NCBI RefSeq assembly: GCF_028681615.1
Contig: NZ_JAQUHV010000002.1
Location: forward strand, 62,001-126,000
DNA: 64,000 nucleotides
Direction of reading: 5' to 3'
Source: Sulfuricurvum sp.
Lineage (GTDB): Bacteria > Campylobacterota > Campylobacteria > Campylobacterales > Sulfurimonadaceae
A program made the position numbers and the translations under genes. Shown here one piece after another: positions 28,829 through 45,644 of the stretch (positions within the stretch are counted from its first letter, which is position 1; every line of letters starts with the position of its first letter). The notes under the pieces were generated by a model, which was given only the letters and a program-made list of their open reading frames with translations, did no database searches and had not been told where the DNA came from.

Positions 28829-30007
28829 ATGCCTGATAAAAAATTATTTCTCTTAACAACGGCTCTTATTACGATAGGAATAATCTGTTCCTATACCCTT
28901 TCGGCGTATACGGTTATTTTATTTGAGTACGATGATTTTCACTTTGTCATACGCGAATTGATTGTCGGAATTATTTCAATTTTATTGATGTGGTCTCTTG
29001 CACAGTTGGACCCTGATGTTTGGCTACACCGTCTGGGTCTTGGGCTGTTCTTTGGGGGAATCGTATTAATGTTGATTATGCCTTTCCTCCCGGCATCGCT
29101 GGTGAGTGAAGTAGGCGGAGCAAAACGTTGGATCAAATTATTCGGTTTTTCACTGGCTCCGGTTGAGTATTTTAAAATCGGGTTTGTCTATTTTTTAGCA
29201 TGGAGTTTTTCGCGTAAGCTTGGGCACCACGGGAATATGGGAGTGGTTGAAGAGTTTAAACGCTTTTTTCCGTATGCGGCGATTTTTATTTTGGTGATGT
29301 TTTTGATCGCTTTTTTACAAAATGACTTGGGACAGGTTATTGTTTTGGCTCTGACGTTAGCCTTTATGCTTTTTTTTGCAGGGAGCAGTTTTCGTTTTTT
29401 CATGACCCTGATCGGAGGATCGGTTTCGTTCTTCCTCTTTTTTATTCTTACCTCCGAACATCGGATCAATCGTATTTTATCGTGGTGGGCAACAGCTCAA
29501 AGTACGGTTCTGGCGTTTTTCCCTGAATCGATTGCCAAACATTTGAGGATTGAAAACGGTGAAGAAGCTTATCAGATCGGGCATTCGCTCAATGCGATTC
29601 ACAACGGAGGAATCTTCGGAACCGGTTTGGGCGGCGGAACGTTTAAGCTCGGGTTTTTAAGTGAGGTACACACTGACTTTGTTTTGGCCGGGATTGCAGA
29701 GGAGTTTGGATTTATAGGTGTTTTTGGTGTAGTACTCCTCTTTATTATGTTACTTCATCGTCTTTTTAAAATCGCCAATCGTTCCTATAATGACACCGCG
29801 TATTTGTTCAGTCTCGGGGTCGGATTGCTTATCACATTCGCTTTCATGGTCAACGCCTACGGTATCAGCGGATTAACACCGATTAAAGGGATCTCGGTAC
29901 CGTTTTTGAGTTACGGAGGATCGACGATGATGGCTTCGGCGATCGGTATCGGGATGGTATTGATGCTGTCTAAAAAAATTACGTACAAATCGGGTGACAA
30001 AAAATGA
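28829..30007 (+). CDS. ftsW: Septal peptidoglycan glycosyltransferase FtsW
   Basis: A 392-residue SEDS protein with about ten membrane helices. It polymerises lipid II at the division site with FtsI. The family loop signature is NGGIFGTGLGGGTFKLGFLSE, followed by HTDFVLAGIAEEFG and the C-terminal SVPFLSYGGSTMM. The start chosen is the ATG at 28829, where MPDKKLFLL begins the first helix; the frame is open further upstream but overlaps the flgB promoter. The last four bases overlap murG. Confidence 0.93.
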   Translation: MPDKKLFLLTTALITIGIICSYTLSAYTVILFEYDDFHFVIRELIVGIISILLMWSLAQLDPDVWLHRLGLGLFFGGIVLMLIMPFLPASLVSEVGGAKRWIKLFGFSLAPVEYFKIGFVYFLAWSFSRKLGHHGNMGVVEEFKRFFPYAAIFILVMFLIAFLQNDLGQVIVLALTLAFMLFFAGSSFRFFMTLIGGSVSFFLFFILTSEHRINRILSWWATAQSTVLAFFPESIAKHLRIENGEEAYQIGHSLNAIHNGGIFGTGLGGGTFKLGFLSEVHTDFVLAGIAEEFGFIGVFGVVLLFIMLLHRLFKIANRSYNDTAYLFSLGVGLLITFAFMVNAYGISGLTPIKGISVPFLSYGGSTMMASAIGIGMVLMLSKKITYKSGDKK

Positions 30008-31020
30008 ATATCATCTTTACGGGGGGCGGAACAGGGGGGCATCTTGTTATCGCCTTATCATTAGCAGAGACTGCACGTGCACGAGGACATCGGGTTATCT
30101 TTATTGGCTCTCAATCAGGGCAGGATCATCAATGGTTCGGTAACAGTCCCCTTTTTGAAAAGGCTTATTTTTTAGATACGACCGGTGTTGTTAATAAAAA
30201 AGGGCTGGGTAAAATCGGGGCGTTGTGGAAAGTATTTAAAGCGTTGATTCGTTCACGTGCTCTCATTCGAGAGTTTGGTGCCGATGCGGTAGTGAGCGTC
30301 GGAGGGTTTTCGGCGGCACCGGCAGCGCTGGCCGCAGTCGTATCCGGTATCCCTTTGTATATTCATGAACAAAATGCGATTACAGGCAAGCTCAATCGTC
30401 TGCTTCGCTCCTATGCAAAAGGGTTTTTCAGCTCCTATGAAGAGGGGGAATTTCATTGCGATTATCCGGTCAATGAACGCTATTTCCAAAATGCCCGGAT
30501 ACGACAAGAGATAAAAAACGTCATATTTTTGGGCGGATCGCAGGGGGCAAAATTTATTAACGATTTGGCACTTGAGGTCGCACCATGGCTGAAAGAGCGA
30601 GGGATACACATTATCCATCAATGTGGGGTTAAAGAAGAAGAGAGAGTAAAGACTGCGTACCATGAACTGGGTATCGATGCCGAAGTCTACGGATTCACCA
30701 CCCAAATAACGGAACTGATCGAACGAAGCGATTTTGCGGTGAGCCGTTCGGGCGCGAGTACTTTATGGGAACTGTGTGCGGCAGGTGTTCCGGCATTTTA
30801 CATTCCGTTTCCCCATGCGGCAGCCGATCATCAGTTCCATAATGCCCAGTATATTCTTCAACATAATTGCGGATGGTGCGAACGCCAAAGTGATGGGATA
30901 GCTTATAAACTCAAAGAAGCGATTATGAGCGATATCGCCCCGAAGAGCGAAGCACTTGCAGATCTTATCGCTCCGAATGGAGCGGAACACATTATCCAAA
31001 AGATTGAAAAAAGCGTTTAA
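30004..31020 (+). CDS. murG: UDP-GlcNAc:lipid I N-acetylglucosaminyltransferase MurG
   Basis: A 338-residue GT-B enzyme that makes lipid II on the inner face of the membrane. The N-terminal GGGTGGH loop is at residues 6-12, and the C-terminal domain has FLGGSQGAKFIN and the donor-site stretch SRSGASTLWELCAAGVP, then FPHAAADHQ. ATGA overlap with ftsW means coupled translation. It ends four bases into the convergent 31-codon ORF. Confidence 0.95.
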   Translation: MNIIFTGGGTGGHLVIALSLAETARARGHRVIFIGSQSGQDHQWFGNSPLFEKAYFLDTTGVVNKKGLGKIGALWKVFKALIRSRALIREFGADAVVSVGGFSAAPAALAAVVSGIPLYIHEQNAITGKLNRLLRSYAKGFFSSYEEGEFHCDYPVNERYFQNARIRQEIKNVIFLGGSQGAKFINDLALEVAPWLKERGIHIIHQCGVKEEERVKTAYHELGIDAEVYGFTTQITELIERSDFAVSRSGASTLWELCAAGVPAFYIPFPHAAADHQFHNAQYILQHNCGWCERQSDGIAYKLKEAIMSDIAPKSEALADLIAPNGAEHIIQKIEKSV

Positions 31021-31112
31021 ATATTCGTGATTTTATGGATAACCCATAACCCGAATGCGAGGATCAGGGTACTCACAATAGCAACAGTAATGGTTCCTGT
31101 TTCGAGTTCCAT
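31017..31112 (-). CDS. 31-residue single-span membrane protein, end of pilus cluster
   Basis: This ORF is not recognised as a known family. It reads MELETGTITVAIVS then a hydrophobic stretch to HKITNI, so it is predicted to be one membrane helix with a short acidic N-terminus. It starts three bases after the mshG-like stop, with AGGA about eight bases before the ATG, so translation could be coupled. It overlaps the murG end by four bases. Position, SD and composition support a real small protein; homology was not testable. Confidence 0.5.
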   Translation of the reverse strand: MELETGTITVAIVSTLILAFGLWVIHKITNI

Positions 31113-31115
31113 GCT

Positions 31116-32354
31116 TTATCCTGCAAGGTCGACCATCGACCACATCGGCAAAAAGATCCCCAAAGCCAGTACCAGAACAAATCCGGCAATGGCGGCGATC
31201 AGGATCGGCTCGATCATGGTAGCGACGTTATCGACAATATAATCATATCGGGTATTATACACGCGATTCACTTTACCCAGCATTGTTCCAAGAGATCCGC
31301 TGCTCTCACCGGCTTTGATCATCTGCATTACCATCCCTTCGAATTGGCCGCTCTCAGCAAACCCCTGCGCCAATGAACGTCCGTCTTCAATGGCCGTAGG
31401 GATTTTTTGGAGCTCTTGTTTGATGTAATTATTCTCAACGACTCCCATAGCAATTTCGAGTGCGTCGATCATCGGAATCCCCGCTTCGGTGAGGACATTA
31501 AACAGATAGATAAAGCGGCCGATCATCGCATAATAGGTCACTTTGCCGACAATGAATATTTTCAGAAAATATTGGTCGGTTTTGAGTCTGAGCATAGGGT
31601 TTCGACGGTATGCAAAACTAAAAGAGACGGAGAGGACAATCGCACCTCCGATGATATAGGGGCCATAAATACGGATGGCATGTTCGGTCCATAAAAGCAA
31701 TTTCGTCGGAAAAGGGAGCTCCATCCCCGATTGTTCAAAAAAAGATTGAAATTGCGGTACGACGAATGTAATAACAACCGTAAAAGCGATACTCATCGCA
31801 ATGAGGATAAAGAGGGGATAACGGGTCGCTTTTTTGAGTTTTTGGCGGTTGTCAAAAATCTGCTGCATGATGGATGAGAGTTTGGCGATTGCCGTGCTCA
31901 GGGTTCCTGTTTGCTCACCGAGTTCAAACATCGATAGAGAGAGTGTCCCGAGCTGACGTTGATAATTGACGACGGCACGGCTGAGACTGAGACCGCTTTC
32001 GATATCGCGGAGTACTTCGGTAAAGATGGAACGTATCATCGGATCATGGGTATCGGTAATACTTTCGGCAAGACAGGTGTTGATCGGCATTCCCGCATCG
32101 AGCATCGTGGAAAGCTGATCCAAAAATGCGATGTAGGGTTCGTCTTTTACCCGTCTGTTTTGGATCGGGTTGGTAAAACGACTTTTGAAACGCTCAAACT
32201 TCATCGAAAAAGGTTCTGAGACCTCTTTGACTTCTACGGGCACGCCGAGGGATTTATCCCGAAATTTTTTGAGTGCTTCGGCTTTGTGGGCAGCTTCAAA
32301 AACAGTGGAACGTTTGTGCTTTCCTTGTTTGTAGCGTACCCGATAAAATTTCAC
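31116..32354 (-). CDS. mshG: MshG/GspF-type inner-membrane platform protein
   Basis: A 412-residue type II secretion/type IV pilus platform protein. After an N-terminal 60 residues (YRVRYKQGK, KFRDKSLGVPVEV), two copies of the GspF helical domain follow (about 75-195 and 275-400), with helices near 175-195, 220-245 and 380-400. GspF motifs such as LSTMLDAGMPINTCL and VLTEAGIPMIDALE are clear. It links the assembly ATPase to the growing pilus. It begins directly after mshE (stop and start adjacent). Confidence 0.9.
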   Translation of the reverse strand: MKFYRVRYKQGKHKRSTVFEAAHKAEALKKFRDKSLGVPVEVKEVSEPFSMKFERFKSRFTNPIQNRRVKDEPYIAFLDQLSTMLDAGMPINTCLAESITDTHDPMIRSIFTEVLRDIESGLSLSRAVVNYQRQLGTLSLSMFELGEQTGTLSTAIAKLSSIMQQIFDNRQKLKKATRYPLFILIAMSIAFTVVITFVVPQFQSFFEQSGMELPFPTKLLLWTEHAIRIYGPYIIGGAIVLSVSFSFAYRRNPMLRLKTDQYFLKIFIVGKVTYYAMIGRFIYLFNVLTEAGIPMIDALEIAMGVVENNYIKQELQKIPTAIEDGRSLAQGFAESGQFEGMVMQMIKAGESSGSLGTMLGKVNRVYNTRYDYIVDNVATMIEPILIAAIAGFVLVLALGIFLPMWSMVDLAG

Positions 32355-34031
32355 TTACATCTCCTTGGTAACGCGGAGAACTTCATCAAGGGTCGTAATT
32401 CCCCCCAATACTTTGCTGAGACCGTCGACGATCATCGGTTCAAATCCCTCTTTTTCCTGTGCGTATCGTGCAATTTCGTATTTGGAAGATTCATCTGAAA
32501 TCATTTTAGCAATGGTCTCGTTGACCATGAGGATTTCTGATATCAAAATCCGTCCGGAATAGCCGGTATTATTGCACTTTGAACACCCTTGACCGGCATA
32601 AAATTTGGCATCTTCAGGAAGCCATCGTTCGATGCGGCGAAGAAGGTTTTTGTGCGGTCGGACTTCATGTTTGCATTCGGTACAGATTTTTCGCACCAAC
32701 CGCTGTGCTACGATCCCGACCAATGAATCGGCTATGAGATAAGATTGCAGCCCCATTTGAACCATCCGTCCGATGGCACTTGGGGCATCGTTGGTATGAA
32801 GCGTCGAGAAAACCAGATGCCCGGTAAGCGATGCCTGTGCGGCAGAATTGAGTGTTTCAAAATCACGGATCTCCCCTACGAGGATGATATCCGGGTCTTG
32901 ACGCAAAAACGATTTCAGAGCTTCGAGAAAACTAAATCCTACCCGCTCGTTGACCTGTACCTGTTGTACCAGAGGGAGCTGATATTCGATCGGATCTTCA
33001 ATCGTAAGGACTTTGTTTTCGATGCTTTTGACTTCGTTCAATGCAGCGTATAGAGTAGTCGTTTTACCGCTTCCGGTTGGACCGGTAATGAGGACGATTC
33101 CAAAGGGCGCATGGATAATTTCATTGAACTTGTCCAGATTTTTCCCATCAAACCCGAGCTCATGAAGTTTGAGAAGAATTTTTTGCTGGTCGAGGATACG
33201 CATAACGATGGATTCGCCGAACAGTGTCGGAGTCGTAGAGAGACGGAAATCGTATTTTCCCCCTGCCACGTCCAGGCTGAACCTGCCGTCTTGGGCTTTA
33301 CGGCGTTCGGAGATGTCAAGGTTGCCTAAGAGCTTGATCCGTGAAGAGAGGGCCGTATAAATATCCAGATCAAATACGAAAGTCTCTTGCAAAATCCCGT
33401 CGACACGTGCCCGAACGGACATTGAACGAAGTTCAGGCTCGATATGGAGGTCACTGGCACGTCGCAAAATGGCATCTTTGATCATCAGGCTAATGAGCTG
33501 CATAACGGAACTGGCATCTCCTTCTGCCCCTTTGGACCCCTCGTTATTGATCTCTTTTTTGACTTCGGCAGCGATACTTTGGGTTTTTTTGATGATTTCA
33601 AGACGCTGAAAGATATGGGCGATATCTTCACTGAGCGAGAGATAGACTTTGATCGGTTTAGTCGCGATATTGCGCTCTAATGCTTCGAGTGCATCAAAGT
33701 TGAGGGGGTCCGATGTGGCGATATAGACGTAGTCTTCATCCTCTTTGAAAGGGATCGCTTTTGCCGCAGTGAGTAATGAAATCGAAAATTTGGCAAGGGA
33801 GAGGAAATCGATTTTTTCTCCGAAGAGGTCGACAAAATCGATTTTGAGCTGTTTAGAGAGGAGCAGTGCCATCTCTTTATGCGATATCATCCCCTCTTCG
33901 ACAAGTACTTCCCCCAGTTTTTTGGTAAATCCGGAATTTTTTTGTTGGGCCAGGGCATATTCAAGCTGCTCTTGGGTGATCAGGGATTCGGAAATGAGCA
34001 AATCCCCTAATCGTACTTGTTGACGGATCAT
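32355..34031 (-). CDS. mshE: MshE/PilB-type pilus assembly ATPase with MshEN domain
   Basis: A 558-residue AAA+ ATPase that powers pilus extension. Residues 1-70 form an MshEN-type domain with two repeats (RLGDLLISESLITQ... and KLGEVLVEEGMISHKE), the fold that binds c-di-GMP in Vibrio MshE. Walker A GPTGSGKTTT has its Lys at 323; the Asp box, VGEIRD and a C4 zinc site (CTEC, CSKCNNTG) follow. In repeat one the glycine usually at position ten is Ser. SD AAGGAGAAGAGG lies just before the ATG. Confidence 0.92.
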   Translation of the reverse strand: MIRQQVRLGDLLISESLITQEQLEYALAQQKNSGFTKKLGEVLVEEGMISHKEMALLLSKQLKIDFVDLFGEKIDFLSLAKFSISLLTAAKAIPFKEDEDYVYIATSDPLNFDALEALERNIATKPIKVYLSLSEDIAHIFQRLEIIKKTQSIAAEVKKEINNEGSKGAEGDASSVMQLISLMIKDAILRRASDLHIEPELRSMSVRARVDGILQETFVFDLDIYTALSSRIKLLGNLDISERRKAQDGRFSLDVAGGKYDFRLSTTPTLFGESIVMRILDQQKILLKLHELGFDGKNLDKFNEIIHAPFGIVLITGPTGSGKTTTLYAALNEVKSIENKVLTIEDPIEYQLPLVQQVQVNERVGFSFLEALKSFLRQDPDIILVGEIRDFETLNSAAQASLTGHLVFSTLHTNDAPSAIGRMVQMGLQSYLIADSLVGIVAQRLVRKICTECKHEVRPHKNLLRRIERWLPEDAKFYAGQGCSKCNNTGYSGRILISEILMVNETIAKMISDESSKYEIARYAQEKEGFEPMIVDGLSKVLGGITTLDEVLRVTKEM

Positions 34032-34041
34032 CCTCTTCTCC

Positions 34042-34782
34042 TTAGTTTGGGTTGTTTAATTTCCATGTCCGCAGCAATTCGGAAGCGGCTTTGGAATCTT
34101 TATAGTTGAGATAGAGCTCTAAAACCCCTATTGCTTCTGTTTTTTTCCCTTGTGCGTAATACGATTTGGCATACAAGAGCCATGCATCTTCTGCTTCACG
34201 GTTTAGCTGATTGGCTTTTTTCGCCCATGTAGCGGCATTCGCATAGTCTTTTTTTGCATAATAATCGCGGGCTACTTCGAGAGCCGTTTCGTATTTTGGA
34301 CTATTTTGATAGGCTTCAAGTGGAGTGTCTGCTTTTTGGGTATTGACTTCAAATAAACGGTCGTTTTTGGCTGTCGGCACTGATGTAGGAACCGACTGAA
34401 CAACAGCCGGAGCGGTCGGTACTATAGATTCTGGCTTAACGGCTGCCACCGGTACTGAAGGAGCGGGTGTAACGGTCTGCTCTTTTTTGGTTTGAGTCGG
34501 AGGAGTGGTTACCACTGCTTTCTGGAGAGTACCGGAAGCGGACGTTTGCTTGAGTTGCTGATCAGCAGCCGGAACGGACGGCGGAGGAATCGTTGTTTCC
34601 GGAATAATAGATGCCATTTTAGCGGGTGTGGATGAGGTTTGAGATGTAAACCACATTTGATATCCGGAAACTCCGGCAATCACAAACAGTATCGTTCCTA
34701 CGATCATAAAGGAGAGTCGAATGATTCGGCGCTGCCGCGCTCTCTCACAACGGGCTACAAGTTGATCAAAATTATCAATCAT
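34042..34782 (-). CDS. MshN-like TPR protein
   Basis: A 246-residue protein with a cytoplasmic N-terminus, a membrane helix at about 22-41, a long Pro/Thr/Val-rich spacer (60-145) and C-terminal TPR-like repeats (YEVARDYYAKKDYANAATWAKKANQL and the next repeat). MshN in Vibrio has the same plan and lies between mshM and mshE, as here. The start chosen is ATG at 34782, with GGAG eight bases upstream, overlapping the previous stop by eight bases. Confidence 0.7.
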   Translation of the reverse strand: MIDNFDQLVARCERARQRRIIRLSFMIVGTILFVIAGVSGYQMWFTSQTSSTPAKMASIIPETTIPPPSVPAADQQLKQTSASGTLQKAVVTTPPTQTKKEQTVTPAPSVPVAAVKPESIVPTAPAVVQSVPTSVPTAKNDRLFEVNTQKADTPLEAYQNSPKYETALEVARDYYAKKDYANAATWAKKANQLNREAEDAWLLYAKSYYAQGKKTEAIGVLELYLNYKDSKAASELLRTWKLNNPN

Positions 34783-35569
34783 GGATAAGCTCCGCATTCA
34801 TTGCCGCCATCGTGATGGTACACATTGAAGGACGCAGATATTTGGATTTATTATGGGTATTGGTGTAGTGAAGCAGGTGGAAAAGATGGTAAAAAATCTT
34901 TTTGAAATTACGAAAATTTCCTGCACTCAGTCGGTGTGCTTTAGCTATAAGTTTCGGATTGATTTCATCGATAATTTCCGAAAATCCCATTTTAATGAGT
35001 TCAGAATGGATATAGTTTTTTCCCTCGATTGTGGTGAGAGGAAAAAGTTCGATCACCCGATGCGGACGGCTTTTGAAATGAGGTGCACGTAATATGGCCT
35101 CACCTTCGCTTCTGTGCATGGCGATGATAAACCAAAATGCTTTTGAATCGCTCAAAATACGGATAAATTCGCGCATTTCGGTACTGAGCAATTGCGCTTC
35201 GTCAATCATAATGAGATGATCAGAATTTTCATAGAGTTGTGTGGCTTCCGTTCGAAGTTGCTCTATATCGCTCCCCTCAACCGTAACCCCTTTGTGGTTT
35301 AAGAGTTTTTTGAGTAGGTCGATCGGAGTGAGAAAGGGAGTTTCAATGAAAATGATATCCCGTTTATCCGCCCATATTGTATGAAGATGGTTGAGTAAAA
35401 AGCTTTTTCCGCTCCCCGGCTCGCCTATGAGAAAAATGAGTTGCCGAAATGAACTATTGAGAAGATTTTGGATTTTCTCAATCGCTCCGAGGGCACTTTG
35501 TACCTCGAAATATTCTTCACTGTTTCGCCGTTCTTCGAATCGGTTTGCCGCTTCAAGCCATTTGGACAT
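34775..35569 (-). CDS. mshM: MshM/ExeA-type AAA ATPase
   Basis: A 264-residue ATPase with Walker A GEPGSGKSF (about 47-55) and Walker B LIMIDEAQLL (about 118-127). ExeA/MshM proteins help place the secretin in the cell wall; the peptidoglycan-binding domain of ExeA is absent here, as in MshM. It starts two bases after the secretin stop. Confidence 0.85.
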   Translation of the reverse strand: MSKWLEAANRFEERRNSEEYFEVQSALGAIEKIQNLLNSSFRQLIFLIGEPGSGKSFLLNHLHTIWADKRDIIFIETPFLTPIDLLKKLLNHKGVTVEGSDIEQLRTEATQLYENSDHLIMIDEAQLLSTEMREFIRILSDSKAFWFIIAMHRSEGEAILRAPHFKSRPHRVIELFPLTTIEGKNYIHSELIKMGFSEIIDEINPKLIAKAHRLSAGNFRNFKKIFYHLFHLLHYTNTHNKSKYLRPSMCTITMAAMNAELIHD

Positions 35570-35571
35570 AA

Positions 35572-37089
35572 TCAGTTAAACCGTTTTAAAATCGCGTCGT
35601 CGATGGAAGGGAAAGCATCCGGTTTCACCAGTGTCGGAGTGATCAGAATAAAGAGTTCACTTTTACGTGTCGAAGCAGTCGAGCCGTGGAAGAGTCGGCC
35701 GAGTAACGGAATATCTCCCAGTACAGGGACTTTATTGTCATAATGATAGGTTTTTTTCTCGATCAGGCCGCCGATAAGAACTTTTTGGGCATCTTTGACT
35801 TTAACGATGGAGGTCATTTGTTTGACGCGTGTATCCGGCGGCATTGTACGATTGCTGCTGCCTATATCGCTTGATCCCATAGCGGTTGAGGCATTCAGAT
35901 CTTCACCGAGCAATTCGCTGGTAACTGGATTGATTCGCATAACGATGTACCCGTCTTCCGTCACTTCCGGAATAATATTGAGGGTAAGGCCGACGAAGAC
36001 GGATCCGAGAGTATTCGTAGTTGTGGCGAGGGTTTGAGTATTTGCCGCAGAGATTGAACCGTTTTGATAGAGATAGCTGAGCTGTTTTCCGACGTTGATA
36101 ACGGCAGGCTGGTTACTCAGTGTCAGGATTTTGGGGTTGGAAAGAACTTCAACATCTCCGTATCGGCTAAGGAAATCGATAAGCCCTAACGGATCAAAAT
36201 TTACCCCGAAAGAGTAAACCGGATGGGCAACACCCATGTTGTTATAACTGTTGGCATAATTGCCTTTGAGCGACAGACTAAAATCACTCCAGTTGACTCC
36301 GGTCGTGTTGTAGTCATTGTAGGTGAGTTCGATCAGATGCGCTTCGATCATCACCTCCGCATGCATGCGTGATTCAAGTTTCGTCAAATATTGTTGGACG
36401 GCTTCTATTTGACGTTTGTTTCCGGTGATGGTGACGACGGCGGCATCGCGGTTTACGAGAGCTTTGTTGATTGCTTCGTTGTACTCTTCGTCGACTTGCA
36501 GAATTTGTTGGATATGTTCACGCATCTGATCCCATAAGGTAAATTTTGAGAGGGCATGGACATTGGTGTAATCGGTATTAGAACCGCTGCCGGAGTTGGT
36601 TGAGCCAGAGGAACCGCCATAAGAAGACGAACTACTGTTTGAACTACTTGAACCGCTATTGGAGGAAACGCCTGTGTTCGCGCCTGGGCCGACGGTGATC
36701 GATTTAGTCGATTCGGTAGTAAGTTGAGACATATTGATGTAATCGATATTGAGATTTACGGTTTTGGTATAAGAGACACGAAGCACCCCTTTGTCTGCAT
36801 CATACGTATAAAAAAGGTTATGATCATCAAAAATAAAACTAAAAAGTTCTGCAACGGTATAGTCTTGGATATTTACCATATCCAGAGGCTGAGAAAGACG
36901 CTCTTTTGCTTTTTGATCTTCAAACACAACGCTGATATGGCATGTCTGTGCAACATCACGGATAAGGTCCATGAGAGTAAGTGCCGATCCGCGATTTTGA
37001 TAAGCACTGAGGCTGAAGCGTTTGTCTTCGCACTCTTTGGCTTGGAGCAGAGATAAAAGCAGTAAAAGCAGTAACACTATTTTTTTCAT
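35572..37089 (-). CDS. mshL: MshL-type outer-membrane secretin
   Basis: A 505-residue secretin that forms the outer-membrane pore. Signal peptide 1-17; an STN-like domain (25-110); a Ser/Gly/Asn-rich linker at 134-172; an N1-type domain with VVTITGNKRQIEAVQQYL; and the C-terminal secretin core with VNVGKQLSY... to VLIGGLIEKKTYHYDNKVP and PLLGRLFHGS. The low-complexity linker is longer than in most secretins. The start overlaps the mshK-like stop by four bases. Confidence 0.9.
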   Translation of the reverse strand: MKKIVLLLLLLLSLLQAKECEDKRFSLSAYQNRGSALTLMDLIRDVAQTCHISVVFEDQKAKERLSQPLDMVNIQDYTVAELFSFIFDDHNLFYTYDADKGVLRVSYTKTVNLNIDYINMSQLTTESTKSITVGPGANTGVSSNSGSSSSNSSSSSYGGSSGSTNSGSGSNTDYTNVHALSKFTLWDQMREHIQQILQVDEEYNEAINKALVNRDAAVVTITGNKRQIEAVQQYLTKLESRMHAEVMIEAHLIELTYNDYNTTGVNWSDFSLSLKGNYANSYNNMGVAHPVYSFGVNFDPLGLIDFLSRYGDVEVLSNPKILTLSNQPAVINVGKQLSYLYQNGSISAANTQTLATTTNTLGSVFVGLTLNIIPEVTEDGYIVMRINPVTSELLGEDLNASTAMGSSDIGSSNRTMPPDTRVKQMTSIVKVKDAQKVLIGGLIEKKTYHYDNKVPVLGDIPLLGRLFHGSTASTRKSELFILITPTLVKPDAFPSIDDAILKRFN

Positions 37090-37442
37090 GGAGTATCCTT
37101 TATACCGAGTACATGACGGGTAGAACTGACGCTGATCATACTCAGGCGGTTGCCCTCTTTCAGACCGACGAAATTATTTTGAATATATGCGACTTCTTGA
37201 TTGTTGACACGATCTCCGACACGATACCATGCGCCGTTGATAAAGGCTTTATTATTCATTATGGCTGTGACAACGGTAGGGGGGACCGCCGGTACGGCTG
37301 TCATCATCGGAGGAGGCGGCAGCAGACCGTTTACGGATGCGGATTTCGGTTTTGCGGTTTTAATAAACGGATCATACATTTGTGCATGCAGCAGATGCAG
37401 CCCGCTTAGGCATAACAAGAGCCAGATCGGAATTCGTCTCAT
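37086..37442 (-). CDS. MshK/PilP-like periplasmic protein
   Basis: A 118-residue protein with a signal peptide (about 1-20, ending LHA), a Pro-rich linker, and a small C-terminal domain (INGAWYRVGDRVNNQEVAYI) of the PilP/GspC homology-region type, which contacts the secretin. Its place between the PilO-like gene and the secretin gene equals mshK. ATGA overlaps on both sides. Confidence 0.7.
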   Translation of the reverse strand: MRRIPIWLLLCLSGLHLLHAQMYDPFIKTAKPKSASVNGLLPPPPMMTAVPAVPPTVVTAIMNNKAFINGAWYRVGDRVNNQEVAYIQNNFVGLKEGNRLSMISVSSTRHVLGIKDTP

Positions 37443-38068
37443 AAACCGACTCCCATATAGAGGATGACCGCTTCAAAACGGGGCTTTTCTTCATCGGAAC
37501 GGATTTGCACGCTTTGAACTTCCACAAGGGTGTTTTGCCCTTCAATAAAGGTTAAAAAGTCGGCAATGGCCGGGAAACTTCCTGTTCCGGTGATTGTGAG
37601 TTTTTTGTACTGTTTTACTTTTCCGAAGAACACTTTATCGGTATCAACCGACTCCATGAGCTCAACTTTAAGGCCAAGTCTGACGGAACGCTCCAATAGC
37701 TGGTCAAGCATTGCGGCGTAACGTCGATTATCGAAAACAAGGCCTTGAGATGCAGCCATTTGGACTAACAGAGCTTGTTTTTCATCTTCGAGCGATGCGG
37801 TATGTGCTTCTTCTTTGATCAGTGCGTTGGTGCTTTGGGTGATCTTTGCCCGATAGGCATCCGGAGAGTTTTCGCTAATCTGTTTTACCAGAAGGGTATT
37901 TTGCTCTTGCAAAGAGGTTAATTCATCCAGTGCGTCCGAGAGGTAAAACATCCATCCCATCACTAAAATACCTATGGCACTGCCGATATAGATGAGCCAT
38001 CTTTGTTGAGCGTTATACCATAGGAGCTGCTCGTCCAGATTATCGAGCTGTACGTCTAAATCGTTCAT
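37439..38068 (-). CDS. MshJ/PilO-like alignment protein
   Basis: A 209-residue bitopic protein: a cytoplasmic N-terminus (1-25), a membrane helix at about 26-45, a coiled coil at 50-115, and a ferredoxin-like C-terminal domain (LKVELMESVDTDKV, then LTITGTGSFPAIADFLTF). PilO/GspM-type proteins link the inner platform to the secretin. ATGA overlaps join it to both neighbours. Confidence 0.75.
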   Translation of the reverse strand: MNDLDVQLDNLDEQLLWYNAQQRWLIYIGSAIGILVMGWMFYLSDALDELTSLQEQNTLLVKQISENSPDAYRAKITQSTNALIKEEAHTASLEDEKQALLVQMAASQGLVFDNRRYAAMLDQLLERSVRLGLKVELMESVDTDKVFFGKVKQYKKLTITGTGSFPAIADFLTFIEGQNTLVEVQSVQIRSDEEKPRFEAVILYMGVGL

Positions 38069-39528
38069 CGCGTTACCTTTACAAGGCTATTGTACGTGGT
38101 TGTGTTATTGTCCAGCTTGATCTCATGGGTTTCGACGTTTTGGTACCCTCTCGCGTAGAGTCCGCTCATGAGCTTGGCAATGTCGTCACGTTTGCGGTAG
38201 TCGGAAACGACGAGGAGACTCATCTCTTTGGAACCGTTTTGTTCCATCAGCAGTGTACCGAGGCGGTAACGTCCAAGTTCGGCAGTCGTATCGAGAAGAA
38301 ACTGCTGACGGGCGGCATGCATGTCGTGGATCAAAGCGGCCGTCTCTTCGGCTCCGTGGTAGAGTGCAATCTCTTCTTGAAGTGTTTTACTTTTATTTTG
38401 TTGTTCTTGGAGGCGTGCATTGTTTTGTTTGAGGGTTGATGAGAGCTCTTTTGTCTGATGTTTGAGCGTTTCCAACTGAGCAGTAAGCTCGGTTTGCCGA
38501 TCTTCTTCATTACCGCTCATCCATCCGACACAGAGTGATGAGATAAGTACAACAAGTAATGCTCCGCCGACAAGTCCTAAAAACTTGCCGCTTTCTCGGT
38601 AATACCACGGGGCTTTGCGTGGGTAAGGGGAGAGATTGAACGTATTTTCTTTTGAGGAGAGAAAATAATCGCTGCACAGAGCATCATGAATATCTGTCGG
38701 AGCACTCCCCTCGCGTGTAAGTGCGCTAATACGGATATCGTTGACACCGTAAGCGTTAAAAATGCTCTCCAACCCCGGGATACCCGCACCTTCAAAATCG
38801 AGATAACAATTGTCGATTCCGCTAAGGCCGAAAAGACCCCGTTTGTGATTGATGGTATGGACGATCCGTTCAATATTTTTGGCGATTCGATCTTGGAGAA
38901 GGATATATTTGTTCAGTTCATCAGGGGCATAATTTTCTTCGATAAGCCCTTTTGTGTGGAGGAAGCTTTTGAGCTTCGGTAAATCGAGCCCTGTCTCAAC
39001 CGCAATGGAAGCGAGCGTTTCAATACTGCGGTGGGCGATGTAATGCCCCTCTTGGTAGATTGCGGCATAGGCCTCTTCGTCTCCCCAATAGATAAACAGA
39101 TCATTTTTGGCACTTAGATGAGGGTAGAGCGAGTGATAGACCATAAATCCAGGAGTAACCTGATCGATTGCTCCGCATTTGGAGAGGGAATCTGAGAAAT
39201 ACTCATGTGCTTTGGTGTGGGAAAGGGCAAAAACTTCGACTAAGATACTTTCATCGGTTGTAATCGTATGACGGATAAAATCGATCGTGTACTCTTCGTC
39301 GCTGTTTAAATTTCCCTCTTCGAACATCCGAATTTCAACTTGAATCCGCAGTTCATTCTCACTGAGACGATCAGAGAGTTTAAGGGTATGGGTACTAAGA
39401 AGCGCGAGAGGAATGATAGCACCGGAACGCAGTTCTTTGAGCTCGCGGGAAGTCCCTTCACTCAGTACACCATTCTGGTAGGTACGGATCCGGTCGTGTT
39501 CTATGAAAAGAATTTTTTGGTTTTCCAT
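38065..39528 (-). CDS. MshI-like protein: PilM-like and PilN-like parts in one chain
   Basis: A 487-residue protein. Residues 1-310 are weakly PilM/GspL-like (actin-fold, cytoplasmic). A membrane helix lies at about 318-341, followed by a coiled coil (345-390, rich in Gln/Leu/Lys) and a small alpha/beta domain to the end (PilN-like). In Vibrio, mshI is often two genes; here the two functions are one polypeptide. It is the first gene after a 58-base gap, so a promoter may lie between it and the pilin genes. Confidence 0.7.
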   Translation of the reverse strand: MENQKILFIEHDRIRTYQNGVLSEGTSRELKELRSGAIIPLALLSTHTLKLSDRLSENELRIQVEIRMFEEGNLNSDEEYTIDFIRHTITTDESILVEVFALSHTKAHEYFSDSLSKCGAIDQVTPGFMVYHSLYPHLSAKNDLFIYWGDEEAYAAIYQEGHYIAHRSIETLASIAVETGLDLPKLKSFLHTKGLIEENYAPDELNKYILLQDRIAKNIERIVHTINHKRGLFGLSGIDNCYLDFEGAGIPGLESIFNAYGVNDIRISALTREGSAPTDIHDALCSDYFLSSKENTFNLSPYPRKAPWYYRESGKFLGLVGGALLVVLISSLCVGWMSGNEEDRQTELTAQLETLKHQTKELSSTLKQNNARLQEQQNKSKTLQEEIALYHGAEETAALIHDMHAARQQFLLDTTAELGRYRLGTLLMEQNGSKEMSLLVVSDYRKRDDIAKLMSGLYARGYQNVETHEIKLDNNTTTYNSLVKVTR

Positions 39529-39586
39529 TGCCCTGCTTGCCGCGTTTTTGTTGGTACGTTAAAACGATAAAATTAATAATTAAATT

Positions 39587-40024
39587 TTAGTTATTGCAGG
39601 GGATTATAGCATAACCCGTTCCACTAAAGAGGCGAATAGTGCTGTTTTTATCACCATTGTTAAAAAAAATATTTAATGGGGAGTGTATTAATGTATCCAA
39701 TGTTACCGAATTGCCATCATGTGGACGGCCTTTAGCGTCAAAACAAACGGTTGTTACATTGGGTGTCATGGTTATGGCGGATTTGATCTCATGTTTCGGT
39801 GCATCGTCGCTGGAGAGGGCTGATGGGGTGAGGGTGACACACCCTGATGGATCGAGTGTGTCATTCCCCATCGCGCGGTAGCGAGCCTCTTTGAGTTTGA
39901 GAAGCGTATACTGAGCATCCTGACGGGTGTAATCGGGGCGGCTCATGTAAAATCCGATACCGGTGAGGACTCCGATGAGGACAATGACAAAGATCAGTTC
40001 AATAAGGGTAAAAGCACTTCTCAT
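39587..40024 (-). CDS. Type IV prepilin-like protein (GspH/FimT type)
   Basis: A 145-residue pilin with a very short leader, MRSA, before FTLIELIFVIVLIGVLTG. Glu5 of the mature chain is present and residue -1 is Ala instead of the common Gly, a form often seen in Campylobacterota. The C-terminal part has a Cys pair (CVTL... and PCNN). Best fit is a minor or major pilin comparable to MshC/A. It overlaps the upstream gene by four bases. Confidence 0.8.
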   Translation of the reverse strand: MRSAFTLIELIFVIVLIGVLTGIGFYMSRPDYTRQDAQYTLLKLKEARYRAMGNDTLDPSGCVTLTPSALSSDDAPKHEIKSAITMTPNVTTVCFDAKGRPHDGNSVTLDTLIHSPLNIFFNNGDKNSTIRLFSGTGYAIIPCNN

Positions 40025-40458
40025 GGTCGTTGCAGGCTCCTTCGTTCGAGTCGGATCGGATGGAGAATCTTGGTGTTGGTGCTATCGGACGTCACAATGA
40101 CACGCATGCTGATCATTCCGTTGGATTCTTCGGATTGGATCGGGGTGTATGCAACATTCGAACAGGTGCTGCCATCGGCTAAATAGTAGCGTTCTATCGT
40201 TACGTTGGCATCAAATTTCCCATCCGATGAGCGGACGGTAAGGCTGCCGAGACAGCTTCCGCCGCTGCGGTCATAAGCACTGATCCGCAGTAATGCCGCT
40301 TCGGTTGCACTTTGTAGAAACAGCTCGGCCTGTTCGCGCGTGTAGCTGTCGGCGTAGTGTTTGGCTCCCAGTGAAGCGTAGCGCATTGTGATTGTAACGA
40401 TTCCACCGATAAAGAGGATGATGAGAAGTACCTGAGGCAGACCGAATGCGCGGCGCAT
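40021..40458 (-). CDS. PilX/MshP-like minor pilin lacking Glu5
   Basis: A 145-residue protein with a short basic leader, MRRA, then FGLPQVLLIILFIGG. The helix is pilin-like but position 5 is Gln instead of Glu, and Pro occupies position 4. Absence of Glu5 is typical of tip pilins such as GspK. A Cys pair (CLGS, CSNV) is present. The place between the MshO-like and GspH-like genes suggests MshP. Overlaps by one base and four bases with neighbours. Confidence 0.65.
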   Translation of the reverse strand: MRRAFGLPQVLLIILFIGGIVTITMRYASLGAKHYADSYTREQAELFLQSATEAALLRISAYDRSGGSCLGSLTVRSSDGKFDANVTIERYYLADGSTCSNVAYTPIQSEESNGMISMRVIVTSDSTNTKILHPIRLERRSLQRP

Positions 40459-41345
40459 TAGAAGACCACCTTTTGTTTGGATAATCGTACCAGATTGCCT
40501 CCGCGAACACTGCGGTTTGTATCGATGGCGAGGCGGATCGTACCGTTGATCATTTGGGCGCGGAAGGCATTGACGTTGGTGGAGAGTATACTCACTTTAC
40601 CGGCTTGGTTGGCAGTATCGGCACAAAAGCTTTCCCCCTTCCATGGACGGTAATCGTCAAAGAGGAATAACGTATTATCCAATGCGGCGTTGCTGATTCC
40701 CAGAGCCGTGATGCATGTAGCGTTTTTTACAGGGAGATGTTCTCCGCGTACAACGGCATATCCTGTATCGACTAGGTTGTATTTTTCATAAATGGTCGTT
40801 GGAGGAGTCACATTAAATACAATCGTATTATCGGACGTCATCGAAATCGGATAAACGTTTGCGTTACCCTCGTCAAAACTTCCTGAAAAGACAAGAGCAA
40901 TATCATTATTAGCCCAGTTAAAACTTCCCCATTTAGCGGTTTGGGTATTCTCGATAGCGGTTTTGGAGGTGTCGGGAGTATAGAGGGTGGCAGTTGCATA
41001 ATTGGAGCGGTTCATATCGACAAAACTGCTGTAATCCCCCGCAAGGTAGCTCTCACTTGCGAGACCGTTCCACTTGAGTAAAGTTTTGGTGTAGAGTGTC
41101 CCATCAAGAGGTTCGCAATGTCCGTTTGTATCACACCCTTGTACTGACATCGGAGCCCGATCGTATAAGAGGATACTGATCTGATCAAGCGCCGTTTGCG
41201 AATCGATGGAGAGAGTCGTGAGTATTTTCGCTTTTTCGCTTCGTAATGTAATTGCTTCGAACGCTTTGAACATACCAACGGAGAGGATCCCCGTAATGGC
41301 AATCGTGATGATGATCTCGATAAGGGTAAAAGCGCGACGTATCAT
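40458..41345 (-). CDS. MshO/GspJ-like prepilin
   Basis: A 295-residue prepilin, leader MIRRA then FTLIEIIITIAITGILSV with Glu5 present, and a large C-terminal domain containing CDTNGHCEP and later cysteines. The size fits MshO or PilW. The start is ATG at 41345, overlapping the previous stop by one base; the frame extends nine bases upstream only to a TTG. Confidence 0.75.
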   Translation of the reverse strand: MIRRAFTLIEIIITIAITGILSVGMFKAFEAITLRSEKAKILTTLSIDSQTALDQISILLYDRAPMSVQGCDTNGHCEPLDGTLYTKTLLKWNGLASESYLAGDYSSFVDMNRSNYATATLYTPDTSKTAIENTQTAKWGSFNWANNDIALVFSGSFDEGNANVYPISMTSDNTIVFNVTPPTTIYEKYNLVDTGYAVVRGEHLPVKNATCITALGISNAALDNTLFLFDDYRPWKGESFCADTANQAGKVSILSTNVNAFRAQMINGTIRLAIDTNRSVRGGNLVRLSKQKVVF

Positions 41346-41992
41346 CAGTTCCAATTCCGTGAGTTGATTTGGATATTCCCGATATTAAATGAGTGGTATT
41401 GCAGTGCGGTGATACACCCTTTGTGCTGGCTGTCGCTTCCATACCCGACCCGAACGAGAACGTATTTGGTATTGGAGGTTTGGTTTGCTGCTTTGGGGTT
41501 GGTGCTTAGAACAGCAGTTCCGATTGTGGCGGGATCATCAACATAGAGTACGGTTGTCCCGATTGCAAAGAGCCCTTTTTTGAGTGTTGCGGAGCAATTT
41601 TTGTCAGCCGTGAGATTGGTGTCGTGATAGTCGTCGATATCGTTGCTTTCTGCATCTTCTTTTCCTATAGGTCCGGCATTGTAGGCAGTGGTTTCGATGC
41701 AGTTGCGCCCCCCTATGAATCCGCCGATACGATAACCGGACGTGAGATTGCAGTCGTAAGCCGGATTTCCTGCAGTAACGTTTAGGATTTGGGAATTTTG
41801 GGTGTTGTTGTTATCCCACGGCAGATTGATAATCATCCCAATCTGAGCCATAGCATCGTACATCGCCTCTTCTTTGATCGTCGTTTGGGTGCTTTGGTTC
41901 ATCGACATTACCAGTCGAGGGATGACGGTAAAGACGATCCCGATGATCACCATCGACAATATCAGTTCAATTAATGTGAGACCTTTTCTCAT
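41345..41992 (-). CDS. MshD/PilV-like prepilin
   Basis: A 215-residue prepilin with leader MRKG and mature start LTLIELILSMVIIGIVF (Gly -1, Glu5). The C-terminal domain has four cysteines (YDCN, GRNCIE, KNCSAT, KGCITA), which probably form two disulfides. It overlaps the end of the large adhesin gene by four bases. Confidence 0.75.
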   Translation of the reverse strand: MRKGLTLIELILSMVIIGIVFTVIPRLVMSMNQSTQTTIKEEAMYDAMAQIGMIINLPWDNNNTQNSQILNVTAGNPAYDCNLTSGYRIGGFIGGRNCIETTAYNAGPIGKEDAESNDIDDYHDTNLTADKNCSATLKKGLFAIGTTVLYVDDPATIGTAVLSTNPKAANQTSNTKYVLVRVGYGSDSQHKGCITALQYHSFNIGNIQINSRNWN

Positions 41993-44900
41993 CGAAAGAG
42001 TTTTACCCCTTTGTTGGTGATGTTTTTGGCAGGGGTCATATTAAAATCACTTCCTTCAAATGTACCGCTATTGACACCTTTGAGTCCACCGCTTATATCG
42101 GTATAGTCATAATTGAAACACGGGTGTTGGCTGCATTCACTACCGAGGGCATAACTGTAATTGTATTTGGAAGAGTACCACAGCCATTGAGGGATATCCA
42201 AATGGACGGTCTGATCATGAGCTGAAGTCACGGTGACTTTTTGCAGCCCGTCGATAGGCAATGAAGAGACATCGATATCATTTCCTCCGGCGATGAATCC
42301 TCCTTGTATGATATTCCCCACTTCAGCGGAGTCGTGATTGAGGTTTCGGTACCAGTGGAGGATATTTTGGGGCATTCCGCTCACATATCCAGTTGTGACA
42401 GTGCTATAGACTTCAAACTCGATAGGATTCGGTGCGGAAGCTTCATTGGTCGTAATATCATAGGCACGTACTCGGCCGTAAATGAAAGTGGCATTTTTAT
42501 CCAGTCCCGAAGCGTTAAGATCGATTACTCCACCATTGTAACTTGTCTTGATATCCTTCAGCGTCAAGATAAAAGGGTTATACGGGAGGCTTGGTGAGCG
42601 AAGAAAATTAAATTTGAGGGAAAGGTTGGCATCTCCATTTTTAAACGAACTGTTTGTGATCGAAAAATACTGAGTATTGAACAGCGTTACGTAGCTTCTG
42701 TTTGTATCGGCAATCGCAGAGGTAGATCCGGTCGAGGCGCGGAGTGAAACGTTTACATCTGATGGATAGGTCCCGGCAGCAGTGAAATAGTACCCCTGCG
42801 GCACCGTTCCACCTGCACAATTGTCACTGAAGTTTTTAGTCACCGTGACACTGTCTTTGCTTAGTGCTTCGATTGTGGTATTTATTTCGATGTTCTGGGT
42901 ACGGCTAGAGTCGAGATAGAGCCAGTTGAAGGGAGTAGAAAGAGGCGTTTTGAAACTGTTCAGGGTTGTTTTGAGTTCATAAGGGTTGATTGTGAGGGAA
43001 AGAGTTGCGTTGACGTCACACCCCAACCGTCCAAGACCGTAACTATCGAGTGCCGTTGTATTGCTGTTGGCGATACAGTCCCATGTTGTACCGGTTTGAT
43101 CCGTCTGTGTCCATGTGTTGTCCTTGGCAAACACATTGATAGATCCAATGTCACGGGCCGTGAGGGTAGAGCTGTTTACGTCAGTGGCAAACACAAGACT
43201 GTATGGCTCGATCGCGGATAAAAATGTATTTTGGGTTGTACAGTTGGAATTGGGACTTTGGAGTGCCGTTGTAATACTGGTTATGCCGTTATAGTTTCCG
43301 CCTCCGTTTTGAGCTGACATGGTGACGCTTTCACCGGCTTTGATGGTCGAAGCAGAGAACGAATAGCCTGAAGGGCGGATAGACATTGTATCGCTGGAAC
43401 AGTTGAGTTCACTGGCATTGGTTTCAACCATAAGTTTGATATTGGAATAGGCTTTTGTTGAATTGAGGGAAGGGATTGTAATCATCGGATTTGTTTGGTT
43501 GATATCAATAGAACCGCTCCATAAAATCGGAAGTCCTGTTGATGTAGCTGGACATGTTGCCCCGTTAACTGCATAGATCTTGGTGATCTTACGAGAGGGA
43601 ATGTCTCCGGCATTGGTACATGCGACGGTAGCATTGACGTCGAATGCGATGTTGGCAATACGGGTATGGAGGCGATTACTTGGGGACATTGCCGGATCGA
43701 TGCGATGATAGAGGTCGTATTGGAACGTGGTGCATTCGGATGTTCCACAAAAGGTACACGTACGAAGAGTGGAACTATTGTAGTTATATCCTGATGCTTC
43801 ATTCGTGTAAATGGTGCTGATGTCCGAAGGAGATAGGATGTAATTGAAGATTTTGACTTCGTCAAGGCTGCCCATTAAATATTTGGGTGAACCGCCGGTG
43901 TCTTCGATTCGGCCGAGAGTGCTAAAAGCATTTCCTATCGTTCCGGTTCCTCCGGTTCCTGTCGCGTTCAGATTGCCATTGATGTAGATTTGCAGTTCAC
44001 CGCTGGAAGCATCCCGTGTCAGGACAAAATGTCGCCATGTCCCGTCATTAATGGCAATCGTTGATTTAGCTTGAGTTCCGTCACCTTTTGCATTGAACCC
44101 GATTTTTCCACTGTTGTCAATCCAACCCCAAAAAATGTCGTTTTGACCTCCCGATTGTTCAATACCGATGATGCCAGGAGCAAGCCAGTTGGTATTGTTT
44201 CCGACTTGAGTCGTATTAAGCCAGAAACTCAGTGATGAGGTATCTCTGAGGATGTTTGCTGCGGCAGCTGGGATTGTGACATATTGGCTGGTCCCGTTGA
44301 GTGTCGTTCCCCGGCAAATTTTTCCCCCCGATACGGTGGTAAGATTGTTGAATGCGGTGCCGTTGTATCCGTTTCCACTCGAGTCCAGCACATCAGCAGA
44401 CGTACCGCTCCACGAGCATTCATCGAAACGGTAGTCTGAAATCGGAGAACATACAGAACAGCTTCTGGGCGATCCATCCCAATTGTATCTGTTGGCCTGA
44501 TTGGTATAGAGTGATTGTATTTGGGATGCTGTGAATGCACTGTTAAAGACGGTCATCTCATCCATGATACCCTGATAATCGTAAGTTTTATCAAAATATA
44601 AATGTGAAAATAGAATTAACAAAGAAGAATAGGAATATCTTTGTCCCAGAACTAATTGATTTGAGTCGATGTTTAATGACCCTGTCGGATAAGTTTTACA
44701 ACTTTTTTGTGAACCGTTGATGTAAAGACATACATTGCTTCCGCTACGTGTTAATGCAATATGATCCCAGGTGCTATTGGTGAGCTCATTCGTGTTCAGA
44801 GAAAATGTTTGGGATGTGTCTTTGACAGAAACTCCGAGCTGATTGTTGCTGTTCAAATACACTCCAAATTCGTCTACAAAAGGGTTTAATAGATTCAGAG

Positions 44901-45558
44901 GTGTTGCCCGGACACCATCGATGATTTGCTGTCGTCCTCCTGTGCTGGAAGCTTTTATCCAAAAGCTGAGTGTCAGATCGCTGACACCGGATAGAAGACT
45001 GGACGGAAGATTGACGTAATCAGTGTTTCCATCAGTTGAGAAATCGCCTCCCTGGCAGACTTTTCCGCTGTTGACGAGGAGAGAATTGGCGGTTCCGGTA
45101 TACGTTCCTCCCTGATCGGTGAATGTATCGGTACTGTTCCAATGGCATCGGTCCATCCGGTATTCGGCTCTTGGAATGATTGGTGTAAATGTGGCTGAAA
45201 TGGTATATGTCTGTTTACCGTTTCTCGTGTTATACACCATGAGATTCACATCTCCTGGAAACATGAAAGAGTACGTTGCATTTGTGACCCCTCCGCTGCT
45301 GGTTGGACAGGTAGCGGAGTTTTGAGATCCGCTAAAGGCTACATTACCGGTAATGCTTATATCCAAGCGTCCCGCTGTTGTGGTATTAAAATAGAATTTG
45401 TCTGTGTTTCCGTTCCCTGAAATACTATCCGACTGCGAATAATTGTAAGTTGTGGAAGTAGCTGAAAACGTATACCTAAAGTTAGGAGAACAAACATCAT
45501 CTCCAACTCCGGTTGAATAGGCGATAGCGATGAGCAACAGCAGCCGAAATATACTCAT
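41989..45558 (-). CDS. MshQ-like giant surface protein with two LamG domains
   Basis: A 1189-residue secreted protein. Signal peptide about 1-19. Two tandem LamG/concanavalin-like repeats cover about 131-357 and 375-596; they share YRxDxCxW, a DYVNLP/QYVTIP strand, LSFWI/L and an YTNxAxxYNW/YNY ending, so they arose by duplication. The C-terminal 500 residues are beta-rich with paired cysteines and resemble the MshQ (DUF6701) region, ending HWYRNLNHDSAEVG and DITNKGV-type sequence. It would be a pilus-associated adhesin. First gene of the minus-strand cluster. Confidence 0.6.
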   Translation of the reverse strand: MSIFRLLLLIAIAYSTGVGDDVCSPNFRYTFSATSTTYNYSQSDSISGNGNTDKFYFNTTTAGRLDISITGNVAFSGSQNSATCPTSSGGVTNATYSFMFPGDVNLMVYNTRNGKQTYTISATFTPIIPRAEYRMDRCHWNSTDTFTDQGGTYTGTANSLLVNSGKVCQGGDFSTDGNTDYVNLPSSLLSGVSDLTLSFWIKASSTGGRQQIIDGVRATPLNLLNPFVDEFGVYLNSNNQLGVSVKDTSQTFSLNTNELTNSTWDHIALTRSGSNVCLYINGSQKSCKTYPTGSLNIDSNQLVLGQRYSYSSLLILFSHLYFDKTYDYQGIMDEMTVFNSAFTASQIQSLYTNQANRYNWDGSPRSCSVCSPISDYRFDECSWSGTSADVLDSSGNGYNGTAFNNLTTVSGGKICRGTTLNGTSQYVTIPAAAANILRDTSSLSFWLNTTQVGNNTNWLAPGIIGIEQSGGQNDIFWGWIDNSGKIGFNAKGDGTQAKSTIAINDGTWRHFVLTRDASSGELQIYINGNLNATGTGGTGTIGNAFSTLGRIEDTGGSPKYLMGSLDEVKIFNYILSPSDISTIYTNEASGYNYNSSTLRTCTFCGTSECTTFQYDLYHRIDPAMSPSNRLHTRIANIAFDVNATVACTNAGDIPSRKITKIYAVNGATCPATSTGLPILWSGSIDINQTNPMITIPSLNSTKAYSNIKLMVETNASELNCSSDTMSIRPSGYSFSASTIKAGESVTMSAQNGGGNYNGITSITTALQSPNSNCTTQNTFLSAIEPYSLVFATDVNSSTLTARDIGSINVFAKDNTWTQTDQTGTTWDCIANSNTTALDSYGLGRLGCDVNATLSLTINPYELKTTLNSFKTPLSTPFNWLYLDSSRTQNIEINTTIEALSKDSVTVTKNFSDNCAGGTVPQGYYFTAAGTYPSDVNVSLRASTGSTSAIADTNRSYVTLFNTQYFSITNSSFKNGDANLSLKFNFLRSPSLPYNPFILTLKDIKTSYNGGVIDLNASGLDKNATFIYGRVRAYDITTNEASAPNPIEFEVYSTVTTGYVSGMPQNILHWYRNLNHDSAEVGNIIQGGFIAGGNDIDVSSLPIDGLQKVTVTSAHDQTVHLDIPQWLWYSSKYNYSYALGSECSQHPCFNYDYTDISGGLKGVNSGTFEGSDFNMTPAKNITNKGVKLFR

Positions 45559-45630
45559 TGTTCTCTTTCCTTATTTGGACGATTGGTGTTCTTATTATAA
45601 TACATTTCGTCCCTAATATCGGTAAAAGCC

Positions 45631-45644
45631 CTTTTCGCTATAAT
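45631..45644 (+). promoter_or_regulatory. Sigma-70 promoter of leuA
   Basis: TATAAT at 45639-45644 preceded by CTTTTCGC; the alaS promoter has the same CTTCGC context. Transcription would begin near 45651. The 53-base leader opens with a hairpin (CTCATT-GC with GCAATGAG, 45652-45679) but has no Leu-rich leader peptide. Confidence 0.65.

Follow-up and report, generated by a model that had tools for sequence, protein, structure and literature searches.

An MSH-type pilus cluster in Sulfuricurvum, probably an old sister of the cts-type machine of Campylobacterota

Introduction

The MSHA pilus of Vibrio cholerae is extended by the ATPase MshE, a process promoted by c-di-GMP, and is retracted by PilT; both PilT and the prepilin peptidase PilD are shared with other systems (PMC7096442). 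A consensus for the pair of c-di-GMP-binding motifs has been published (PMC11731258), its string exceeding the given length of 24 residues by one position. In the MSH model of Denise et al. 2019, mshE, mshG, mshL and mshM are the mandatory machine genes, MSH loci are without a peptidase gene, and mshA is sometimes found apart from the locus (PMC6668835). The same study already reported MSH in Epsilonproteobacteria, so the presence of MSH in Campylobacterota alone is not new. Campylobacter is not named in its main text, nor did we find there two separate MSH-type loci, a link to cts, or a split in the c-di-GMP motif.

A preliminary description of 64,000 nucleotides of a Sulfuricurvum genome (2.66 Mb; contig C2, positions 62001–126000; hereafter the window) had proposed that it carries an MSHA-like pilus cluster. 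Protein models, trees and profile matches support this proposal. The cluster probably encodes an MSH-type pilus for c-di-GMP-gated attachment, an old sister of the cts-type machine and not the product of a recent Vibrio-like transfer.

Gene content and order of the cluster

Between murG and leuA lie thirteen ORFs on the minus strand, spanning 45558 to 31116 in the order Q-D-O-P-C-I-J-K-L-M-N-E-G; neighbouring ORFs overlap or stand apart by no more than about 60 bp. The layout bears out the thirteen tightly packed genes of the preliminary description, with the pilin-like and MshQ-like genes placed in front of the machine genes, but not its start at 31017, which falls at the end of murG (30004–31020, plus strand), the gene flanking the mshG end; the true span is 31116–45558. 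Taken together, the Pfam and NCBIfam models matched T2SSF, T2SSE with MshEN, secretin, AAA and TPR domains, four prepilin-like proteins and a LamG protein. Flagellar genes resembling fliE, flgC and flgB are found at window positions 27451–28706, beside ftsW- and murG-like genes and near the pilus site.

The first gene (41989–45558) encodes an MshQ-like putative adhesin of 1189 aa, with a signal segment, two LamG/ConA-like domains (Pfam Laminin_G_3, 8e-44) and a beta-rich C-terminal part that is conserved in 14 relatives. DUF6701, which we take to be the marker domain of MshQ, is present above the Pfam cut-off (2.8e-13) in a relative that is 47% identical (L043); it was not detected in the window protein, and a search of the protein's own genome was also blank, but so were the control genomes. 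The structure model of MshQ has a mean pLDDT of 61.

Four minor prepilins follow. The MshD-like protein (41345–41992; 215 aa) carries the cleavage motif G/LTLIE and an N_methyl match above cut-off, and its best profile match is Aeromonas MshD (1.3e-10). The MshO-like protein (40458–41345; A/FTLIE, N_methyl above cut-off) has the D and P genes as its neighbours in every relative; its ORF was listed as 298 aa from a TTG at 41354, the likelier start being the ATG at 41345. The MshP-like protein (40021–40458) is without Glu5 (A/FGLPQ) and was assigned by order and sequence; it is kept in relatives and matches Aeromonas O/P weakly. The MshC-like protein, of the GspH/FimT type (39587–40024), exceeds the cut-off of TIGR02532 and is best matched by Aeromonas MshC (9.6e-12).

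The machine genes begin with mshI (38065–39528), encoding a fused PilM/PilN-like inner-membrane protein of 487 aa, assigned by order and a weak match to Aeromonas MshI2. MshJ (37439–38068; PilO/GspM-like) and the secretin-associated MshK (37086–37442; PilP/GspC-like) have profile matches to their Aeromonas counterparts at 4e-8 and 9e-10. The secretin MshL (35572–37089; Pfam Secretin, 5e-42) has the MshL model TIGR02519 as its best NCBIfam match, at 225.4 bits; this is under the cut-off of 250.2, which is a database threshold and not a biological feature, and GspD is next at 147 (78 bits lower). The AAA ATPase MshM (34775–35569) matches Pfam AAA_22 and the Aeromonas MshM profile (1.3e-13), and the TPR protein MshN (34042–34797) was placed by TPR matches and order. 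The extension ATPase MshE (32355–34031; T2SSE, 1.5e-124) has an MshEN domain, within which two 24-residue predicted c-di-GMP-binding motifs (33849–34013; residues 7–30 and 38–61) are separated by a 7-residue spacer. MshG (31116–32354; T2SSF, 2.5e-50) is the inner-membrane platform protein, and the identities of MshE and MshG are also given by their trees. The mandatory set of Denise et al. 2019 (mshE, mshG, mshL and mshM) is thus present in one locus. The divergent gap between mshQ and leuA (45559–45703) likely holds the msh promoter and marks one end of the proposed exchange site described below; promoter matches in it were no commoner than in shuffled sequence.

Comparison with gammaproteobacterial msh genes

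The gammaproteobacterial reference was the Aeromonas caviae msh locus (L057), located on a chromosome-sized "plasmid" record and arranged I1-I2-J-K-L-M-N-E-G-F-B-A-C-D-O-P-Q. The exact msh order I-J-K-L-M-N-E-G claimed earlier holds against this locus, except that MshI is a single fused protein and not I1-I2. Window-type families were compared profile to profile with the Aeromonas proteins, with the T2SS proteins of the same Sulfuricurvum genome as controls. The gene of the same name was the best match for eight families (C, D, J, K, L, M, E and G), while I, N and P gave weak matches to their counterparts, that of MshN to Aeromonas MshN not being significant, and the comparison of O did not single out MshO. 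Protein identity to gammaproteobacterial MSH is about 25–38%.

Other plasmid-borne loci were seen. Plasmid pVtak1 of Vibrio taketomensis (L134) has a fragmented msh locus, with the MshE match in five pieces, and is apparently a decayed plasmid copy. A Legionella adelaidensis plasmid (L058) carries an MSH-like locus without an adjoining MshG gene, and on the Deferribacter desulfuricans megaplasmid pDF308 (L135:10808–19062) there is a locus resembling those for type IV pili, its ATPase highly divergent.

Pilins, peptidase and motor ATPases outside the locus

None of the ORFs of the locus encodes a major pilin, PilT or a prepilin peptidase, as had been noted before, and the genome search for pilA, pilT and pilD proposed at that time located a pilin pair, PilT, a PilU-like ATPase and PilD. 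The prepilin pair is at C2:146351–147327, 39 kb upstream of the cluster and outside the window, between genes resembling those for glutamine synthetase and PEP carboxykinase (named by eye). Both pilins are orthologous to cluster-flanking pilins in relatives (best identities 80% and 61%). In some Sulfuricurvum the flanking pilins directly precede Q (80% identical in L042), and in other relatives they follow G in convergent orientation; a convergent prepilin was found within 2.5 kb of G in 40 of the 62 loci having G. The best profile match of both families is Aeromonas MshA, over the N-terminal helix only. Among PDB sequences, one of the displaced pilins is best matched by Shewanella MshA (2.2e-7, again over the N-terminal helix only), which is also the best Foldseek match, though not a significant one (E 0.95). 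Given this orthology and the match to MshA, the major pilin missing from the locus has most likely been displaced by 39 kb.

One prepilin peptidase (PilD) is encoded in the genome, on contig C3 (L139:3686–4438), and PilT and the PilU-like ATPase are on contigs C12 and C4 (445 and 427 bits, cut-off 319). The cluster would use these pilins, motors and peptidase. The absence of PilT and peptidase genes from the locus is normal for MSH: MSH loci are without a peptidase gene (PMC6668835), and V. cholerae MSHA shares PilT and PilD with other systems (PMC7096442). Contrary to the preliminary description, the missing parts are no special feature, and "complete", its term for the cluster, applies to the locus together with the rest of the genome but not to the locus alone.

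A second MSH-type locus and its relation to Campylobacter Cts

Contig C4 carries a locus of the order I-J-K-L-M-N-X-E-G (L031:7897–17267), without pilins and adjoining an era-like gene; near relatives of this cts-type locus occur across the order. In Campylobacter-like genomes, a K-L-M-N-E-G block follows a 1186-aa por-like gene, presumably por, and neither I/J nor pilins were found beside the block. It reads as ctsR-D-P-X-E-F, judged by order and gene lengths, and we assume that its first and last genes are ctsR and ctsF. This reading follows from the gene lengths of the block (470, 167–201, 172–184 and 519), which fit C. jejuni ctsD (472), ctsP (202), ctsX (195) and ctsE (519) (PMC8308473). 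The genome paper of C. ureolyticus, in which single MshL and MshM genes are annotated under type II secretion (PMC3758288), fits an MSH-type reading.

Three PilA-like prepilins are encoded directly upstream of a priA-like gene on contig C2 (L136:9668–11175), just as the prepilin-like competence protein Cj0683 of C. jejuni is encoded in an operon ahead of priA (PMC10046745); from this analogy and the correspondence to the cts genes, the cts-type locus is most likely the DNA-uptake machine of the genome. A second Q'-D'-O'-P' module is present on contig C1 (L137:7243–12738), with a C' prepilin at the C1 end (L138:169–804); Q' carries Calx-beta and Ig-like domains instead of LamG. These genes likely serve the cts-type machine. 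A third system, on contig C6, is a true T2SS (GspD-E-F-G-H-I-J).

Phylogenetic placement

In the MshG tree, rooted on GspF/PilC, gammaproteobacterial MSH, cts-type and window-type proteins group together (100/99), as do cts-type and window-type proteins within that group (100/99), and the window type forms its own clade (100/100). In the MshE tree, unrooted and without PilT, window and cts types are joined (100/99) against gammaproteobacterial MSH, GspE and PilB; all MSH proteins come together at only 93/91, and the cts type as a single clade has a support of just 58/11. Gammaproteobacterial MSH was represented by two loci only, from Aeromonas and Legionella. The Deferribacter ATPase (L135) was omitted for its very long branch, and GspE matches on E. 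coli plasmids were left out as outgroups because virulence plasmids may be among them. Rooting MshE on PilT placed the root inside cts with weak support, probably owing to rapid evolution of the Campylobacter ATPases and to the length of the PilT branch, and that root was not used; the window type is its own clade in this tree too (100/99). Window-type proteins are thus set apart from the cts type in both MshE and MshG. An MshL tree, in which the window type was not one clade and the GspD branch was very long, was not relied on.

Transfer was raised in the preliminary description, and a recent one from Gammaproteobacteria would agree with the I-to-G order held in common. Window MshE, however, is 38% identical to that of Aeromonas and 47% to its own genome's cts-type ATPase, a grouping of window and gammaproteobacterial MshE without cts is rejected with this sampling (p-AU 2e-5), and the cluster is carried by seven families of the phylum; we regard such a transfer as highly improbable. 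The window type would instead be an ancient sister of the cts-type machine, and a single duplication likely lies behind the pair.

The trees also bear on whether the locus might be a pseudopilus or a variant of type II secretion that exports proteins. In favour of this, the secretin is a homologue of GspD, the ATPase of GspE and the platform of GspF, and the locus contains no major pilin, but MshG falls with gammaproteobacterial MshG and outside GspF/PilC (100/99), and MshE is not inside GspE. This reading is very unlikely, since a separate true T2SS is present in the genome and the conserved pilin pair has MshA as its best match. A position inside type II secretion families, named in the preliminary description as what would refute it, was thus not found for MshG or MshE.

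The c-di-GMP motif of MshE

Window MshE exceeds the cut-off of NF053729 (57.7 bits, cut-off 38), as do three other window-type MshE proteins (57–70 bits for the set), and the model was listed for none of the four cts-type ATPases checked. The motif pair of window MshE retains 19 of 22 key positions. By our own scoring, chosen after the domain result was seen and using a 24-residue spacing as the best fit to Aeromonas MshE, the pair is present in 17/17 window-type MshE of the tree set (14–21 of the 22 positions), whereas 11 of 13 cts-type ATPases have 8–11 positions and two keep the pair. These two belong to family f15 (L163, L164). Given that PilB and GspE proteins retain the motif too, it was probably ancestral, and most cts-type ATPases would have lost it. 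Window MshE is accordingly predicted to bind c-di-GMP.

Distribution and a probable exchange site at murG-leuA

Scanning genome contigs by MshL alignment gave 75 loci, all from Campylobacterota (Sulfuricurvum, Hydrogenimonas, Nitratiruptor, Sulfurimonas, Sulfurospirillum and many MAGs), and the window MshL is 95% identical to that of MAG STB_144, one of the named close relatives on which the genus assignment is based. A search of viral contigs with gammaproteobacterial MshL gave no match. The synteny search suggested earlier found an order common to the Campylobacterota loci, with I-to-G shared with Aeromonas: Q-D-O-P-C-I-J-K-L-M-N-E-G is unbroken in about 76 other Campylobacterota loci (80 window-type loci counted, about four of them fetched twice), and the gene layout is non-random. 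Split ORFs were seen in some relatives, in MshE (L037:7476–9153), MshG (L102) and MshI (L125/L157), which may reflect a frameshift, an error of assembly or gene decay.

Window-type MshE (640 bits or more) was present in 19 of 249 phylum genomes that were at least 90% complete, and a more distant MSH-type ATPase (465–560 bits) is common in the remainder. In a sample of 37 genomes of the genus, about 14 carry the window-type cluster. The murG and leuA genes are about 70–150 bp apart in about 14 genomes of this sample, and about 15 kb apart, holding the msh cluster, in nine. In four genomes they are about 10 kb apart and enclose another kind of type IV pilus cassette, with about nine genes, which by order and matches encode PilM/N/O-like proteins, a secretin, an unassigned protein, a prepilin, PilB-like and PilC-like proteins, and a prepilin; one further genome has two small genes there. 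The junction corresponds to window positions 31018–45703 (L168–L171, L172 and L174 in relatives). A single chromosomal site can thus be occupied by different pilus systems or by none, a pattern suggestive of exchange by way of the flanking regions.

These distributions help to judge whether the cluster is a second machine for DNA uptake (competence), duplicating the cts-type system. The latter is its nearest kin in both the MshE and MshG trees and appears to own related Q'-D'-O'-P' and C' genes, but a full cts-type system is already present in the same genome, and the window type is patchy in both phylum and genus. An MshQ with LamG domains and a c-di-GMP motif that is mostly lost in cts-type ATPases also speak against DNA uptake, which is an unlikely role. 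Attachment remains the preferred one.

Discussion

As an attachment pilus, the system would work as follows. Prepilins would be processed by the PilD encoded elsewhere, and MshE bound to c-di-GMP would drive polymerisation via MshG, the platform protein, together with I, J, N and M, the pilus leaving through the MshL secretin with K. The displaced MshA-like pair would form the shaft and C-D-O-P an initiating or tip complex, exposing MshQ, with its two lectin-like LamG domains, as an adhesin. Retraction would depend on PilT and the PilU-like ATPase. The role proposed is c-di-GMP-gated attachment to a surface or to cells.

On balance, we lean towards a history in which an old split in the phylum gave two MSH-type machines: the Cts DNA-uptake system, in which c-di-GMP control was mostly lost, and a c-di-GMP-gated attachment pilus. 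Campylobacter Cts would then be a remodelled and shortened MSH, and the Sulfuricurvum pilus would be exchanged for a different type IV pilus at one constant site. Judging by the literature searched, which included few subscription papers, the pairing with cts is new, as are the split in the c-di-GMP motif, the displacement of the pilin pair and the proposed exchange site.

Environmental Campylobacterota gain a testable attachment pilus by this reading, and the DNA-uptake machine of Campylobacter becomes a member of the MSH branch among type IV filaments. It suggests that c-di-GMP control was retained on the attachment pilus and lost on the DNA-uptake pilus, and it points to a constant position in the chromosome at which one pilus system is exchanged for another.

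Comparison with known systems

The locus resembles the putative MSH of Epsilonproteobacteria of Denise et al. 2019 (PMC6668835) in having E, G, L and M. With type II secretion it shares a homologous secretin, ATPase, platform and pseudopilins, but its proteins fall outside GspF and GspE and a distinct T2SS exists in the same genome. Like the MSHA of Vibrio, Shewanella and Aeromonas, it has the I-J-K-L-M-N-E-G order without peptidase or PilT, a large MshQ-like protein beside the minor pilins, and the c-di-GMP motif pair in MshE. It differs from MSHA in carrying Q-D-O-P-C in front instead of B-A-C-D-O-P-Q behind, in having no MshF or MshH and a fused MshI, in its displaced major pilins (probably two), in a spacer of 7 instead of 5 residues between the c-di-GMP motifs, and in an MshL that scores under the TIGR02519 cut-off. 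Campylobacter Cts has a homologous K-L-M-N-E-G block in identical order and is its sister in the MshE and MshG trees; unlike the Sulfuricurvum cluster, the Cts ATPase is without the c-di-GMP motif and the system serves transformation.
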